From contig CACDPY010000001.1 of the NCBI GenBank assembly GCA_902554765.1, positions 62,001 to 126,000 of the forward strand: DNA of 64,000 bases, read 5' to 3'. Shown one piece after another: positions 231 through 8,558 of the stretch. Made by a program: the position numbers and the translations under genes. The first letter of the stretch is position 1. Each line of letters opens with the position of its first letter. The notes under the pieces were generated by a model. That model saw only the letters and a program-made list of their open reading frames with translations, made no database searches and had not been told where the DNA came from. Source of the stretch: an uncultured Pelagibacteraceae bacterium. Its GTDB lineage: Bacteria; Pseudomonadota; Alphaproteobacteria; Pelagibacterales; Pelagibacteraceae.

Positions 231-316
231 GCCCTCGTGGTGAAATTGGTAGACACAAAGGACTTAAAATCCTTGCCGCTTGCGGAGTGCCAGTTCGAGT
301 CTGGCCGAGGGCACCA
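231..316 (+). tRNA. tRNA-Leu(TAA)
   Basis: gccctcg/cgagggc acceptor stem, long variable arm, GTTCGAGTC T-loop, anticodon TAA (ggacttaaaatcc), encoded CCA at 314-316. Confidence 0.95.
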
Positions 317-321
317 CATAT

Positions 322-1092
322 ATGATTAAACCAGTAATAATTTTTGATAAAAATAAAAATTCTATAAATATTAAAAGATCTATAGAAAAAAAAATAAAAT
401 TTTACTCTTTAAAAAAATCTAATTTAATTATTGTTATTGGAGGGGATGGTTTTATGCTCCAATCCCTAAAAAAACTATATAAGCAAAAAAAACCATTTTA
501 TGGAATTAATTCAGGTAATTATGGCTTTCTTATGAATAGATTTTCACAAAAAAACTTAGTTAAGAATTTATTAAAAAATAATAAGATAAGTGTTCCTGCT
601 TTGGAGATGAAAGTAATTAATAAACTTAATATACAAAAAAAAGCAATTGCAATTAATGAAGTTTCAATTTTAAGACAAAGTAGACAAACATCATCATTAA
701 AAATTAAAATAGGAAAAAAAACAATAATAAAAAAATTAGTATCAGATGGAGTTTTGGTTTCAACACCAGCTGGAAGCACTGCTTATAACTTATCTGTTGA
801 TGGTCCAATTTTAAGTCTTAATTCTAAAAAGTTGTCAATTGTACCAATAAGTGCTTTTAGACCTAGAAATTGGAAAGGAAAAATTATGAGTGATAAGTCC
901 AAAATTGAAATACTAAATTTAAATCCAAAGAAAAGACCAATTAGTGCAGTCGCAGATAATATAGAGGTTAGAAATGCAAAAAAAATTATTGTTAAAGTCA
1001 GTAGTAAAATAAAATTTGACATATTGTATGATAAAAACAGAAGCCTTCAAAAAAAAATTAAACTGGAGCAAATTAGAAGAGAAACTACTTAA
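322..1092 (+). CDS. nadK: NAD kinase; the ORF-track start at 280 lies inside tRNA-Leu, so ATG 322 is preferred
   Basis: IVIGGDGFMLQSL, NSGNYGFLMN and VSTPAGSTAYNLSVDGPI motifs of ATP-NAD kinases. Confidence 0.9.
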   Translation: MIKPVIIFDKNKNSINIKRSIEKKIKFYSLKKSNLIIVIGGDGFMLQSLKKLYKQKKPFYGINSGNYGFLMNRFSQKNLVKNLLKNNKISVPALEMKVINKLNIQKKAIAINEVSILRQSRQTSSLKIKIGKKTIIKKLVSDGVLVSTPAGSTAYNLSVDGPILSLNSKKLSIVPISAFRPRNWKGKIMSDKSKIEILNLNPKKRPISAVADNIEVRNAKKIIVKVSSKIKFDILYDKNRSLQKKIKLEQIRRETT

Positions 1093-1141
1093 TCTTTTAA
1101 ACTATAGTTTAGGAATTTTAAAACAATTATGAAATTTTATA

Positions 1142-1825
1142 ATGTTATTTTTAGATAAATTTTTTTTATTTTTTGCTGACTATCATCACAAACGAATAAT
1201 TAGATATTTAAAGAATCATGATTTAACAACTCTAATTGATGTAGGTACTCATAAGGGCGAATTTTTGAAAATTGCTTTAAAAATTAAATCATTTAATAAA
1301 ATTTATTGCTTTGAGCCTCAAAAAGAAATCTTTAAATTTCTTAAAAAAAATTTTTCTAAATATAAAAAGATTACTTTTTTTAACCTGGCGTTAGATAAAA
1401 AAAAAAATAAAAAATACTTATATATTAATAAGCTTACAAGCACTTCTACCTTATCCGCTTTTAATAGAAAATCAAAATGGCTTAAATTAAAGAATTTATT
1501 ATCAAACTCTAAAAAAAATTATCTCAAAAAATATAAAATAAGCACATCTTCTTTAGATCAAGTTTTTAATAACAAAAAGTTGAATAAATGCTTATTAAAA
1601 GTAGATGTGGAAGGTTTTGAATATGATGTATTGTTAGGATGTAAAAGAAAGATGAATGAAATACAATATATATTAATCGAAAATCAATTCGGCAATCATT
1701 ATAAAAAAAAAAATTATGAGATTATAAAAAAATTTTTATTTAAAAATAATTATAAAATACTAAAAAAATTTCTTTCACCAACTTTACATTATCAAGATAT
1801 TATTTTTAAGAAAGAATTATATTAA
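1142..1825 (+). CDS. FkbM family methyltransferase
   Basis: TLIDVGTHKGEFLKIAL, CFEPQKE, LLKVDVEGFEYDVLLG motifs. Confidence 0.85.
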   Translation: MLFLDKFFLFFADYHHKRIIRYLKNHDLTTLIDVGTHKGEFLKIALKIKSFNKIYCFEPQKEIFKFLKKNFSKYKKITFFNLALDKKKNKKYLYINKLTSTSTLSAFNRKSKWLKLKNLLSNSKKNYLKKYKISTSSLDQVFNNKKLNKCLLKVDVEGFEYDVLLGCKRKMNEIQYILIENQFGNHYKKKNYEIIKKFLFKNNYKILKKFLSPTLHYQDIIFKKELY

Positions 1826-1847
1826 TAATTCAAATCAATATAAGATT

Positions 1848-3290
1848 TTATAATTTTAATTTTATCAAAATATTGTTTAAACCATAAGCAAAAAAGAAAG
1901 ATATATTTATCAAACATGGAGTAAAATATCTTGGTTGACCCCATAGTCCAGCCACACTAATAAAATATAATATACTTAAAATATTTAGTATTAAAAATTT
2001 ATCATAAAATTCAAGATTTCTTTTCCTATATAACTTTGAAAAAAAATCTTTAAATCCAATTAAAACAAAAAAATATATTATTAGAGAATAAAATATATTA
2101 CGGTCCATATTTTTATGAAAATATTCTTTTGGATTTTCATTTGCTTCCGTACTACCTTTATCTAACATATAATTTTCGTATACTAATGTTGGGTGCAAAA
2201 TACACATTACAATTATTTTTTTGATTAATAATTTTGAGAAATAAATTGGGTTTTGCTTCACCTCGTTTAAAAAGAAATTGTTTCTATATTCTATATTCTT
2301 ATCTAAATCTAGTTTGTTCGTATTTTCAATAGGTAAAATAATTTTTATATTATTTTTTTTTCTCCATTTTTTTTCTAAATCATCTAATACTATCTTTGCA
2401 GTTTTCTGATTAATATTTTTTCTATCAGCATATATTCCAACTACAAAATAATGATAATACGAATAATATTCATGTTTTGAAGATATAAGATAAAAAGAAT
2501 TATGTTTTTGGAGATGATTTAAACCAATAAAGAACATTATAAAAATATAACCAAGTAATAATGGTAATATTGATAATAATTTTTTTTTATATACTAGTAA
2601 AAAGAAAATAATAATTGGGACAATAATTAAAAAACTATAAGCTTTCTGAGCATACATTAAACCTATTAAAGATCCTATTACAAAATTGACAAGAATACTT
2701 TCAGATTTTTTTATTAAAAGAGTAAACACAATTATCATCAATGTTAAAAATAAACTTTCACTCCAAAATGAAGAGTGCCATTGAATAAGAGTAGGCTCAA
2801 AACAAAGAAATAACAAAAGTATAAAAGCATAGTACTTTTTATTAATATTTAAAAATGTCTTAGAAAATTGAAGATTAAAAAAATAAACAGCTAAAAAGAA
2901 CAAAAAAATTTGAAGAAATAAAATTCCAATCTTTAAATTTTTAGTTTTAATAATTAATTTATCATTTTCATTCTTTTCATATATTTCTTTATCTAAAATA
3001 TAATAATAATAACCTACTAAAATTGGTTGTAAAAAAGCACGATCGTAAATTGGTAGTGACTCTGTAAAACTTTTTCCTTGTGATAGATCTGATCTAAATT
3101 TATCTGCCACCTCCCAAACATGCCTCATATCAGATGTGAGCATCATATGTTTTGGTTCATCAATTGAATTACTAACTATTTTATCAAATTTTTCTAAATT
3201 TTTTGAGGCAATCGTTAAACTTACTATTATCCCAATAATTATTATTAAAAAACTCTTTTTCAGTGGTAAAAAAAAATTTAATTTTTTCAT
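1848..3290 (-). CDS. Polytopic membrane protein, possibly GT-C/GT39-like glycosyltransferase
   Basis: 480 aa with many hydrophobic segments; general resemblance to dolichyl-phosphate-mannose mannosyltransferase-like proteins; no diagnostic motif confirmed. Confidence 0.5.
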   Translation of the reverse strand: MKKLNFFLPLKKSFLIIIIGIIVSLTIASKNLEKFDKIVSNSIDEPKHMMLTSDMRHVWEVADKFRSDLSQGKSFTESLPIYDRAFLQPILVGYYYYILDKEIYEKNENDKLIIKTKNLKIGILFLQIFLFFLAVYFFNLQFSKTFLNINKKYYAFILLLFLCFEPTLIQWHSSFWSESLFLTLMIIVFTLLIKKSESILVNFVIGSLIGLMYAQKAYSFLIIVPIIIFFLLVYKKKLLSILPLLLGYIFIMFFIGLNHLQKHNSFYLISSKHEYYSYYHYFVVGIYADRKNINQKTAKIVLDDLEKKWRKKNNIKIILPIENTNKLDLDKNIEYRNNFFLNEVKQNPIYFSKLLIKKIIVMCILHPTLVYENYMLDKGSTEANENPKEYFHKNMDRNIFYSLIIYFFVLIGFKDFFSKLYRKRNLEFYDKFLILNILSILYFISVAGLWGQPRYFTPCLINISFFFAYGLNNILIKLKL

Positions 3291-3335
3291 TTGAGAAATT
3301 ATTATTAGTAATACACTTATTATTTAATTTAATAA

Positions 3336-3364
3336 ATAAATAAACATTTGTTAACAAAAATAAT
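3336..3364 (+). repeat. 29-bp imperfect repeat, copy A (outside the tRNA fragment)
   Basis: ATAAATAAACATTTGTTAACAAAAATAAT; 26/29 identical to 3446-3474. Confidence 0.75.
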
Positions 3365-3386
3365 TAGTATAAATTTTATTGAGTGA

Positions 3387-3440
3387 TGGTGCCCCCGCAC
3401 GGATTCGAACCGCGGACCTATTGATTACAAATCAATTGCT
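3387..3440 (-). pseudogene. Truncated tRNA-Thr fragment (3' 54 nt, from the D-stem end to CCA)
   Basis: Exact 54-bp copy of 4185-4238; the first 22 nt of the tRNA (acceptor 5' strand and most of the D arm) are absent. Confidence 0.93.
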
Positions 3441-3445
3441 AGAGT

Positions 3446-3474
3446 ATAAATAAACATTTGTTTGCAACAATAAT
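3446..3474 (+). repeat. 29-bp imperfect repeat, copy B (inside the putative element)
   Basis: ATAAATAAACATTTGTTTGCAACAATAAT. Confidence 0.75.
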
Positions 3475-3491
3475 CTTTGAATATTTTTATT

Positions 3492-3513
3492 TGGCAACAA
3501 TCTGATAACAATG
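3492..3513 (+). repeat. Two tandem degenerate 11-mers (TGGCAACAATC, TGATAACAATG)
   Basis: Match the TGACAACAATC iterons at 4098-4128 on the other side of the cargo gene. Confidence 0.7.
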
Positions 3514-3525
3514 ATAGGATTTTGA

Positions 3526-4077
3526 ATGTATAAAATATTTTCAAAAATATTTATTATCTGTTCAGCTTTCATATTATTTGGTTGTGCTACTTCACAAGTA
3601 AGCATGGTTGGTCAAAAAGTTTCTTTGGCAAGTTATAAGAACATAGCATTAAGCGGTAACTCAGGAGTGCTTGGCCAAGCGGTTGCAAACGAGTTAGCTA
3701 GTAGAGGCTACAGAATTTCAAGTCCTGGTAAAACAAGTTCGCTTATGTTGAGACTTAATCTAAATGAAGCTGAGATTGCAGAACCAAAAAATTTACAACT
3801 ATTATCTAAAGAAGGTGTTGATGCTGTAATAGTAGTTAATGCTGTTGGTGGTTATGATCAAATGCCACAAAGTGCTAGTGTTCAAATTCTTGAAACTAAA
3901 TCTCTTGAAATTTTAGCTGGAGTAAATTGGCAAAATGGCTGGGGAGGTCAGCAAGGTTCTATAGCAGATAGAGTAATGAGAAAAGGACTGACAAGATCTG
4001 CTAAAGAAATAGTTAATGCATTAGATGCATCTTATTCAAGCGCTGGTAAAAAAGTTCTTAATGTCTTAACTAAATAA
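3526..4077 (+). CDS. Small putative outer-membrane lipoprotein, cargo of the putative element
   Basis: 183 aa; signal peptide with lipobox LFGC (MYKIFSKIFIICSAFILFGCATSQ); no family recognised with certainty. Confidence 0.75.
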   Translation: MYKIFSKIFIICSAFILFGCATSQVSMVGQKVSLASYKNIALSGNSGVLGQAVANELASRGYRISSPGKTSSLMLRLNLNEAEIAEPKNLQLLSKEGVDAVIVVNAVGGYDQMPQSASVQILETKSLEILAGVNWQNGWGGQQGSIADRVMRKGLTRSAKEIVNALDASYSSAGKKVLNVLTK

Positions 4078-4097
4078 TATTTATCGACTACTTGATT

Positions 4098-4128
4098 TGA
4101 CAACAATCTGACAACAATCTGACAACAC
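4098..4128 (+). repeat. Tandem iterons TGACAACAATC x2 plus partial TGACAACAC
   Basis: Direct reading: tgacaacaatc tgacaacaatc tgacaacac. Confidence 0.9.
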
Positions 4129-4184
4129 TTATTATCGTAAGAATTATCTTTGCATAAATTATTTTGATAAAAAAGTAAGTGAAG

Positions 4185-4260
4185 TGGTGCCCCCGCACGG
4201 ATTCGAACCGCGGACCTATTGATTACAAATCAATTGCTCTACCAGCTGAGCTACAAGGGC
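4185..4260 (-). tRNA. tRNA-Thr(TGT), intact
   Basis: Reverse complement gcccttgtagctcagctggtagagcaattgatttgtaatcaataggtccgcggttcgaatccgtgcgggggcacca; anticodon TGT, CCA encoded. Confidence 0.95.
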
Positions 4261-6620: not shown

Positions 6621-6696
6621 AGGAGTGTAGCTCAATTGGTAGAGCGCCGGTCTCCAAAACCGGAGGCTGAGGGTTCGAGTCCCTCCGCTCCTGCCA
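6621..6696 (+). tRNA. tRNA-Trp(CCA)
   Basis: aggagtgtagctcaattggtagagcgccggtctccaaaaccgg..., anticodon CCA, 3' CCA encoded. Confidence 0.95.
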
Positions 6697-6716
6697 ATTA
6701 AGATAATAAACTGATT

Positions 6717-6908
6717 ATGAAAAACCCGATTAAATTTATACAAGAGGTTAAACAAGAAGCGTTTAAAATATCTTGGCCAACTAGCAAAGAAACTCTACAG
6801 GGAGCTTTAATGGTTTTCGCTATGGCTGTTGTGATGTCACTATTTTTTCTTCTTTTAGATCAGGTTTTAAAATTTTTTTTAGAAATTTTACTTAAGGTAA
6901 GTATTTAA
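6717..6908 (+). CDS. secE: Preprotein translocase subunit SecE
   Basis: 63 aa, FIQEVKQEAFKISWPTSKET, directly before nusG. Confidence 0.93.
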   Translation: MKNPIKFIQEVKQEAFKISWPTSKETLQGALMVFAMAVVMSLFFLLLDQVLKFFLEILLKVSI

Positions 6909-7438
6909 TGAAAAATTGGTATATTGTTCAATCACATTCAAGCTTTGAGAATAAAGTGGCTGGTCTTATTAAAGAAGAGGCAGAAAAAGCCAAAATTTCT
7001 GAAAAATTTGAGGAAATAGTAGTTCCAACGCACGATGTAACAGAAGTTAAAAGAGGTAAAAGAATTCAAAGAAAAAAGAAATACTTTCCAGGCTATGTAT
7101 TAATTAAAAGTGAAATGGATAATAATATTTATCATATGATAAAAAATATAAAGAGAGTTAGTGGTTTTCTTGGCTCAAAGGGAATGCCAGTTCCTGTTTC
7201 TGATAAAGAAATTGATAAGATTTTAGGTCAAATAAAAGATGGTGTAGCTCAGCCAAAATCTGGTATAGAGTACAGCGTCGGTGAAAAAGTTCAAGTAGTC
7301 GATGGTCCATTCGCTTCATTTAGTGGAATGGTCGAGGAAATAGATGAAGAAAAATCTAGACTAAAGGTTTCAGTCTCAATTTTTGGAAGACCGACACCAG
7401 TAGATCTAGAGTATAACCAAGTTGAGAAAGTAAGTTAA
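6908..7438 (+). CDS. nusG: Transcription termination/antitermination protein NusG
   Basis: [43 protein letters not shown] (KOW). Confidence 0.97.
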
Positions 7439-7869
7439 TGGCAGCAAAAAAAGAGATAAGTGGTTTTATAAAATTACAAATTAAAGGTGGTCAAGCGAAC
7501 CCTGCACCTCCAGTTGGTCCAGCACTTGGACAACGGGGTGTAAATATTATGGAATTTTGTAAAGCGTTTAATGATAAAACAAAATCTCTTGCGGGCAAAC
7601 CTGTGCCTGTAGAAATAACTGTATACAAGGACAAGAAGTTTGATTTTAAAATTAAGTCTCCACCGGCGTCATTTTTTATTAGAGAAGCAGCTAAATTAAA
7701 AAGTGGATCACAAGAACCAGGTAGAAATATAGTTGCATCAATAACAAAAAAACAAGCTGAGGAGATTGCTAAGCAAAAAATGAATGATTTAAACGCAATT
7801 GATTTAGACCAAGCTGTAAAAATTATAGCAGGATCAGCTCGGTCAATGGGGATTGAGGTTAAAGAATAA
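7438..7869 (+). CDS. rplK: 50S ribosomal protein L11
   Basis: [33 protein letters not shown]. Confidence 0.98.
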
Positions 7870-8558
7870 TGTCTTCAAAAAGATTTAAAAAACTACCTGA
7901 AAAAACAAATCTTTTACCTGCTGTAAATATTGAGAAATTGTTATCTGAAGTAAAAAAGAATTGTACAACAAAATTTGACGAGTCTATTGATTTAAGTTTT
8001 CAGATTAACAACAAACAAAAAAAAAGTGAAATAAATATAAGAACTGTTGTTAACCTTCCTGGTGGATCAGGCAAAAAAGTTAAAGTTGCAGTAGTATGTG
8101 AAGATCCAAAAACAGATGAAGCAAAATCAGCTGGGGCTGATGTTGTTGGAGGTGATGATTTTATTGAAAAAATTAAAAATGGTGAAATGAACTTTGAAAA
8201 ACTTATTTGCACTCCTGCAATGATGATTAAATTATCTAAACTTGGGAAAGTTTTGGGACCAAAAGGTTTGATGCCAAATCCAAAATTAGGCTCTGTAACC
8301 GAAGATCTGAAAACTGCTATTAAAGATGCAAAATCTGGACAAGCAGAAATAAGAAATGATAAAGATGGAAATATAGGTGTTAGTATCGGAAAAAAATCTT
8401 TTAATGACGATCAACTAATTAAAAACTTTAATGCTATAATTGACACATTAGATAAAGAAAAATCAAATAACACAATTAAAGGAGATTTAATTAAATCTGC
8501 CTTTGTTACGTCGTCTATGGGCGTTTCTTATAAAATTAAATTAAGTAAAAATATATAG
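7869..8558 (+). CDS. rplA: 50S ribosomal protein L1
   Basis: GKVLGPKGLMPNPKLGSV; gene order. Confidence 0.97.
   Translation: MSSKRFKKLPEKTNLLPAVNIEKLLSEVKKNCTTKFDESIDLSFQINNKQKKSEINIRTVVNLPGGSGKKVKVAVVCEDPKTDEAKSAGADVVGGDDFIEKIKNGEMNFEKLICTPAMMIKLSKLGKVLGPKGLMPNPKLGSVTEDLKTAIKDAKSGQAEIRNDKDGNIGVSIGKKSFNDDQLIKNFNAIIDTLDKEKSNNTIKGDLIKSAFVTSSMGVSYKIKLSKNI

Follow-up and report, generated by a model that had tools for sequence, protein, structure and literature searches.

The window analysed here is a stretch of 64,000 nucleotides from an uncultured Pelagibacteraceae (SAR11) bacterium (assembly GCA_902554765.1, contig CACDPY010000001.1, positions 62,001 to 126,000), whose genome (G000) comprises 0.88 Mb in 39 contigs and is 71% complete. 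It carries a small element, here called the window cassette, between an intact tRNA-Thr(TGT) gene and a displaced copy of the 3' part of that gene, the core copy (Table 1). A repeat search found positions 3387-3440 to be identical to 4185-4238 at 54 of 54 nucleotides, with a start-to-start spacing of 798, which leaves 744 bp between the two copies. Together with the ARAGORN call of the tRNA gene, this bears out a preliminary description of the locus, which had been made from the sequence alone. The same description had reported a single 183-aa lipoprotein gene and no integrase, and the open reading frame (ORF) list and Pfam agree: the lipoprotein gene is the only sizeable ORF between the copies, and no recombinase gene is present in the cassette.

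The lipoprotein has a weak TraT match in Pfam and a low-confidence structure prediction, made without an alignment (predicted local distance difference test score, pLDDT, of 48). No credible match to it was found in PDB, NCBIfam or PHROGs. A match to PF01370 (Epimerase), at 21.0 bits against a cut-off of 20.9, is marginal and was set aside as probably spurious on a lipoprotein. The gene has no counterpart in the 200 other genomes searched from the genus, where the single weak match (G084) has 26% identity over 68 aa with stops, nor in 297 other genomes of the order.

Table 1. Features of the tRNA-Thr locus in the window
Feature	Position	Strand	Basis or remark
NAD kinase (NADK) gene	280-1092	+	in 26 loci lacking a core copy, homologue ends 0-4 nt from tRNA-Thr
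Older insertion, NADK to distal core	1093-3386	.	not present at empty sites
FkbM-type methyltransferase in older insertion	1142-1825	+	PF05050, E=7.7e-15
480-aa membrane protein in older insertion	1848-3290	-	ORF list
Eroded remnant of earlier element	3336-3386	.	direct repeat D3 and comparison of ends
Distal core copy (att site)	3387-3440	minus	54/54 identity; homologous copies in 61/140 loci
Conserved class-A left end (TAAATAAACATTTGTTTGCAACAATAATC...)	3441-3490	+	consensus of 34 class-A elements
Left pair of 11-bp direct repeats (GGCAACAATCT/GATAACAAT), putative arm-type integrase sites	3493-3512	+	lag-11 pair
Inferred -10-like promoter element GATAGGATTTTG	3513-3525	+	just 5' of start codon; resembles GATAAAGTTTTTTTATG of other cassettes
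Cargo ORF, 183-aa predicted lipoprotein	3526-4077	+	ORF list; lipobox-like LFGC
Conserved right-end motif GACTACTTGATT	4086-4097	+	common to class A/B right ends
Right set of three 11-bp direct repeats (ACAACAATCTG x3), putative arm-type integrase sites	4100-4129	+	lag-11 pair; cognate match to left end
Inverted fourth copy GACAACACTTATTATCGTAAG overlapping third right repeat	4121-4142	.	covarying dyad; partly degenerate in window
Conserved class-A right end (...TTTTGATAAAAAAGTAAGTGAAG)	4143-4184	+	consensus
Intact tRNA-Thr(TGT), target gene	4185-4260	minus	ARAGORN; 3' part regenerated by element (proposed)

Empty, occupied and tandem states of the site

We searched 201 genomes of the genus, mostly incomplete assemblies, with the tRNA sequence and fetched 140 loci, 139 of them with an intact gene, which together with the window gave 140 oriented loci. 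The exact 54-nt repeat of the window is far above chance expectation, and the same arrangement recurs: 61 of the 140 loci carry at least one same-strand, partial copy of the tRNA 3' end. These copies delimit 79 segments of 0.4-7.7 kb (median 1.7 kb), 59 of which measure 2.3 kb or less, and the cargo mostly differs from one segment to the next. The 61 occupied loci hold between one and four segments each, with two to four in tandem at 16 of them. A core copy is lacking at 26 loci in which 0-4 nt separate the NADK stop codon from the 3' end of tRNA-Thr, whereas at six others (L053, L083, L089, L091, L169 and L174) the stop codon directly adjoins the distal core copy (0 nt). The NADK-tRNA and NADK-core junctions thus show the site before and after site-specific integration. 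The NADK stop is the ancestral left neighbour of tRNA-Thr and the boundary of the hotspot, and the window cassette was almost certainly inserted by integration at this site. The distal core copy in the window would comprise the displaced native 3' part of tRNA-Thr plus a short element-borne stretch past the anticodon loop. The preliminary description had proposed a search for an empty site, for other cargo between the same repeats and for a larger version with an integrase at the same tRNA; all three were found, the last being L174, described below.

The elements have a common format. A simple local alignment of the left ends against three consensus strings placed 34 of the 79 segments in class A (the window included), 23 in class B and 12 in class D, with 10 unclassified. 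Elements of classes A and B span 0.4-4.3 kb, and those of class D are large (median 6.1 kb). Of the 133 ORFs of at least 60 aa in classes A and B, all but three (130) face the tRNA, and an in-frame start codon is present at +136 to +150 in 48 of 57 elements, typically near +142. A conserved leader of ca. 140 nt, with a -10-like box, separates the cargo start from the distal end, so each cassette probably has its own promoter. A genome collection contained the class-A junction in 34 stretches, whose record titles all read Pelagibacteraceae, Pelagibacterales or Pelagibacter, and a strict right-end pattern gave 12 matches, every one at a tRNA-Thr locus or on a short contig ending nearby.

Among the domains recognised in proteins from the smaller cassettes are trypsin-like, Mrr, DpnI-like, SRA, T5orf172, M60 peptidase and globin domains, and several of these proteins have hits to models of known or candidate defence proteins. 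The class D cargo includes MmeI-type enzymes (L077), Mrr/helicase proteins and a lectin/autotransporter, and part of L168 is 70.5% identical to the MmeI-type L077 over 1.1 kb. Two gene families with constant beginnings were also observed. Genes with the near-constant signal peptide MKKLLGIVVLGLLLSGNAYA and differing mature proteins number 18 in the 79 segments (in L048, L053, L054, L064, L077, L081, L084, L085, L101 and others), with 25 more elsewhere in the same loci. Tandem pilin-like genes with the almost invariant N-terminus GFTLIELLVVVAIIGILAAVGVVAYNGYT and a variable remainder number 23 in seven segments and 54 outside them (L076, L081, L085, L095, L101 and L166; also L038 and L056).

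The variable region of the window extends from the NADK stop (1092) to the tRNA and is thus larger than the segment 3387-4260 first noted. The 2294 nt that separate NADK from the distal core point to an older insertion in between, in which no core copy was found beside the NADK stop. At 3336-3386, the eroded remnant of an earlier element consists of a class-A left-end piece, ATAAATAAACATTTGTT, joined to a class-B-like right end (3356-3386) that is identical to AAAAATAATTAGTGTTGATTTTATTGAGTGA at 28 of 31 positions. Neither this remnant nor the 11-bp repeats treated below had been noted in the preliminary description. At a separate locus, L115 (genome G028), tRNA-Thr lies in an island on the Lon side rather than beside NADK, with a cut-off integrase ORF near tRNA-Leu(tag); a rearrangement between two hotspots, or a misassembly, is possible.

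The 11-bp repeats and candidate integrases

Pairs of repeats at a lag of 11 are present in 64 of the 79 left ends and 70 of the 79 right ends, compared with 10% and 16% of shuffled ends, respectively, and 17% of interior windows; when lags 6-19 were scanned, only lag 11 stood out. The 8-mers common to left and right ends number 3.54 within elements versus 0.78 between elements, a value that none of 2000 permutations reached. The inverted copy that follows the third right repeat covaries with it: 15 sequences show 10 both-side changes, a number that 0 of 500 shuffles reached, and every slid control scored lower. Ten elements with mostly unrelated cargo have arms like the ACAACAATCTG repeats of the window, whereas a 147-aa MPTDKQKLG protein has different arms in L244 and L267, which suggests that arms and cargo are modular parts.

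Arm-type sites are a feature of lambda-like integrases, and the repeats at both ends of the cassettes look like such sites. They could instead be iterons or operators, bound by a replication initiator or by a repressor of the cargo promoter, respectively; iterated short repeats are typical of iterons, and the left pair overlaps the putative promoter region of the cargo. However, the repeats stand near the core at both ends, in integrase-bearing elements as well, and the right set, with its three direct copies and one inverted copy, has no gene directly after it. We consider the iteron or operator explanation unlikely.

No integrase was found in the small cassettes. L174, a 7.7-kb element at the same tRNA-Thr, has genes for a primase/helicase-like protein and for a tyrosine integrase of 451 aa that contains an Arm-DNA-bind_3 domain. 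Its GACTACA repeats, present at both ends, are also the arms of the integrase-less L107 and L162, but not of the window cassette. Paired lag-11 repeats also mark both ends of two further integrase-bearing elements. One is L222, at tRNA-Met(CAT), with a 329-aa integrase and a 671-aa AAA-domain protein; the other is L215, at tRNA-Pro(TGG), with a 481-aa integrase. An integrase-less cassette at tRNA-Val(TAC) (L220, positions 6622-8351), flanked by a 38-nt copy of the tRNA 5' half, has TGATCACA arms that match those of L222. In L215, L222 and L220 it is the 5' side of the tRNA that is duplicated, and in L220 the repeat ends in the anticodon loop. Elements of the L174/L222 type could be helpers of the integrase-less cassettes. 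The preliminary description had proposed a search for a tyrosine recombinase elsewhere in the genome or population; integrases were encountered in other genomes of the genus (L174, L215 and L222), none of them with the arms of the window cassette.

Movement of the cassettes and competing explanations

Cassettes, or large parts of them, are 94-99% identical between genomes whose NADK and rlmB genes are ca. 78-85% identical. The cassettes of L072 and L082 share 98.7% identity versus 81.1% for rlmB, and the same holds relative to the flanking genes for L088/L120 (94.2% versus 78.1%), L048/L084 (96.9% over 382 nt versus 78.7-80.2%) and L122/L167 (97.0% versus 83.6-85.1%). Near-identical cassettes in genomes with diverged flanks indicate that the cassettes move.

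Such exchange might be brought about mainly by homologous recombination across conserved flanks and core copies, with integrase activity being ancient or absent. The conserved 46-54-nt cores and ends could provide the homology, and the mosaic elements (L122/L167), the identical cargo with different arms and the lack of integrases in small cassettes all fit this explanation. Nevertheless, the exact empty sites and the exact abutment on NADK need site-specific joining, the repeats match within elements, and the integrase satellites have the same geometry; we give homologous recombination as the main route little chance. It is very unlikely that the window cassette is what remains, now fixed, of a larger island or satellite after deletion of the integrase. 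A larger integrase-bearing element at the same tRNA (L174) and the older eroded sequence in the window (3336-3386) speak for a remnant, but conserved ends, cognate repeats and a fixed leader length are found in dozens of small elements with different cargo, a repeated format that random deletion is not expected to produce, and near-identical small cassettes occur in divergent genomes. The preliminary description had left open whether the element was a non-autonomous unit or the remnant of a larger island; its conserved ends and arm repeats argue for the former, and we regard it as very probably an intact non-autonomous unit. An old fixed local duplication of the tRNA 3' end, which a local and exact repeat might suggest and which would have all relatives carry the same gene, has next to no probability in view of the empty sites, the many alleles, the tandem arrays and the absence of the lipoprotein gene from the other genomes of the genus and order.

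We therefore favour, with good confidence, the view that the window element is a non-autonomous, arm-coded integrative cassette mobilised in trans, and think it likely that the mobilising enzyme is an arm-reading tyrosine integrase. Several observations weigh against this view. Ten of the 79 segments lack a recognisable end class, some elements mix ends (L122/L167), and in L135 a core copy lies beyond a NADK gene that itself adjoins tRNA-Thr, possibly through duplication or misassembly. Because the elements are related by descent, the permutation tests overstate their independence, and binding of the repeats by an integrase is read from their anatomy alone. No integrase with the ACAACAATCTG arm specificity of the window was found, PF00589 had no match in the window's genome (at its 71% completeness), and relatives of the L174 integrase occur in just 3 of 399 genomes. 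No excised circle or virion copy was seen (viromes were not scanned).

Other searches bear on the source of the integrase. In INPHARED, ordinary phage tRNAs made up most of the listed matches to the core, none of the records spanned 80% of the query, and the integrase of L174 had no match. Relatives of the four integrases compared were absent from 34 further class-A loci. A search of the loci with a hidden Markov model (HMM) derived from XerC/D-type hits yielded no integrase, a result that is uninformative because the model also missed the divergent integrase of L174.

From this anatomy, and from what is generally known of lambda-like arm sites, we infer that a heterobivalent tyrosine integrase acting in trans would read the 11-bp repeats. 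The recombinase would be supplied by an integrase-bearing satellite or a phage, would bind the repeats near both ends as arm-type sites and would exchange strands in the 7-bp anticodon loop of tRNA-Thr. Distal copies are uninterrupted to position 45-54, or broken earlier at scattered differences from the tRNA allele of the window; the two tRNA-Thr states and the shared minimal repeat suggest that exchange takes place within the anticodon loop (positions 39-45, plus-strand tRNA sequence) or directly beside it. Excision would bring the right repeats, the tRNA core and the left repeats together in the circle as one compact attP, and integration at the tRNA 3' end would restore the tRNA and displace earlier cassettes outward, building an array.

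More tentatively, with the odds slightly against it, the cassettes may form a genus-wide economy in SAR11, in which many integrase-less cassettes use the anticodon loop of tRNA-Thr, and more rarely other tRNAs (including their 5' side), and the 11-bp arms serve as an 'address' that decides which rare satellite or phage integrase moves each one, much like an integron without a resident integrase. If true, a single tRNA slot with interchangeable cassettes would explain gene trade without a transposase or integrase in each cassette. The cargo includes restriction-type and other defence-like genes as well as genes for secreted proteins and pilin-like genes, and the arm-code reading yields concrete predictions of which integrase moves which cassette.

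Relation to known systems

Searches of the open-licence literature turned up no description of a SAR11 cassette system at tRNA-Thr. The preliminary description had likened the element to tycheposons, with which it shares a tRNA border, cargo and a streamlined marine host. The likeness does not hold at the level of the element: tycheposons, as summarised second-hand in PMC10872708, are cargo elements of 4-200 kb with a tyrosine recombinase, whereas the window cassette measures 0.8 kb (classes A and B, 0.4-4.3 kb) and has none. Phage satellites such as phage-inducible chromosomal minimalist islands (PICMI; int, alpA and primase; PMC10803314) and virion-encapsidated integrative mobile elements (VEIMEs) resemble L174 (integrase and primase/helicase-like protein) and L222 (integrase and AAA-domain protein), and the single-gene window cassette lacks the int/alpA/primase module of PICMI. 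Integron cassette arrays without an integrase, or clusters of attC sites lacking integron-integrases (CALIN; PMC11389934), are similar in that promiscuous cassettes form arrays and the recombinase comes from elsewhere. The SAR11 site differs in being a tRNA core with arm-like repeats and, apparently, in each cassette having its own promoter (attC sites were not scanned for).

Closer parallels are the additive flexible genomic islands with tRNA-fragment direct repeats in Ca. Actinomarinales (PMC7771536) and the tRNA-Lys repeats of Ca. Methylopumilus (PMC10872708), where, in the parts of these papers that treat them, arrays likewise grow by addition. The hosts and tRNAs are different, and those passages describe no conserved ends, cognate 11-bp repeats, fixed leader or repeat-matched integrase satellites. 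Among the ssrA islands of Dehalococcoides, 15 without an integration module were proposed as possible cis-mobilizable elements (CIMEs; PMC3146451). These are similar in having att-flanked cargo, no recombination genes and a tandem position beside autonomous islands at one RNA gene, although they involve serine recombinases and a 20-bp repeat, and the SAR11 cassettes are smaller and have element-specific arm-like repeats. In the window cassette, too, att sites flank cargo without recombination genes, and an integrase-bearing satellite, L174, occurs at the same tRNA, with arms that match those of L107 and L162 and differ from those of the window cassette. Of the features of tRNA-targeted, tyrosine-type elements, it has the exact repeat and the empty site but not the encoded recombinase. 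The SAR11 cassettes belong, as a variant, to the already known tRNA-targeted additive-island cassettes and CIMEs.
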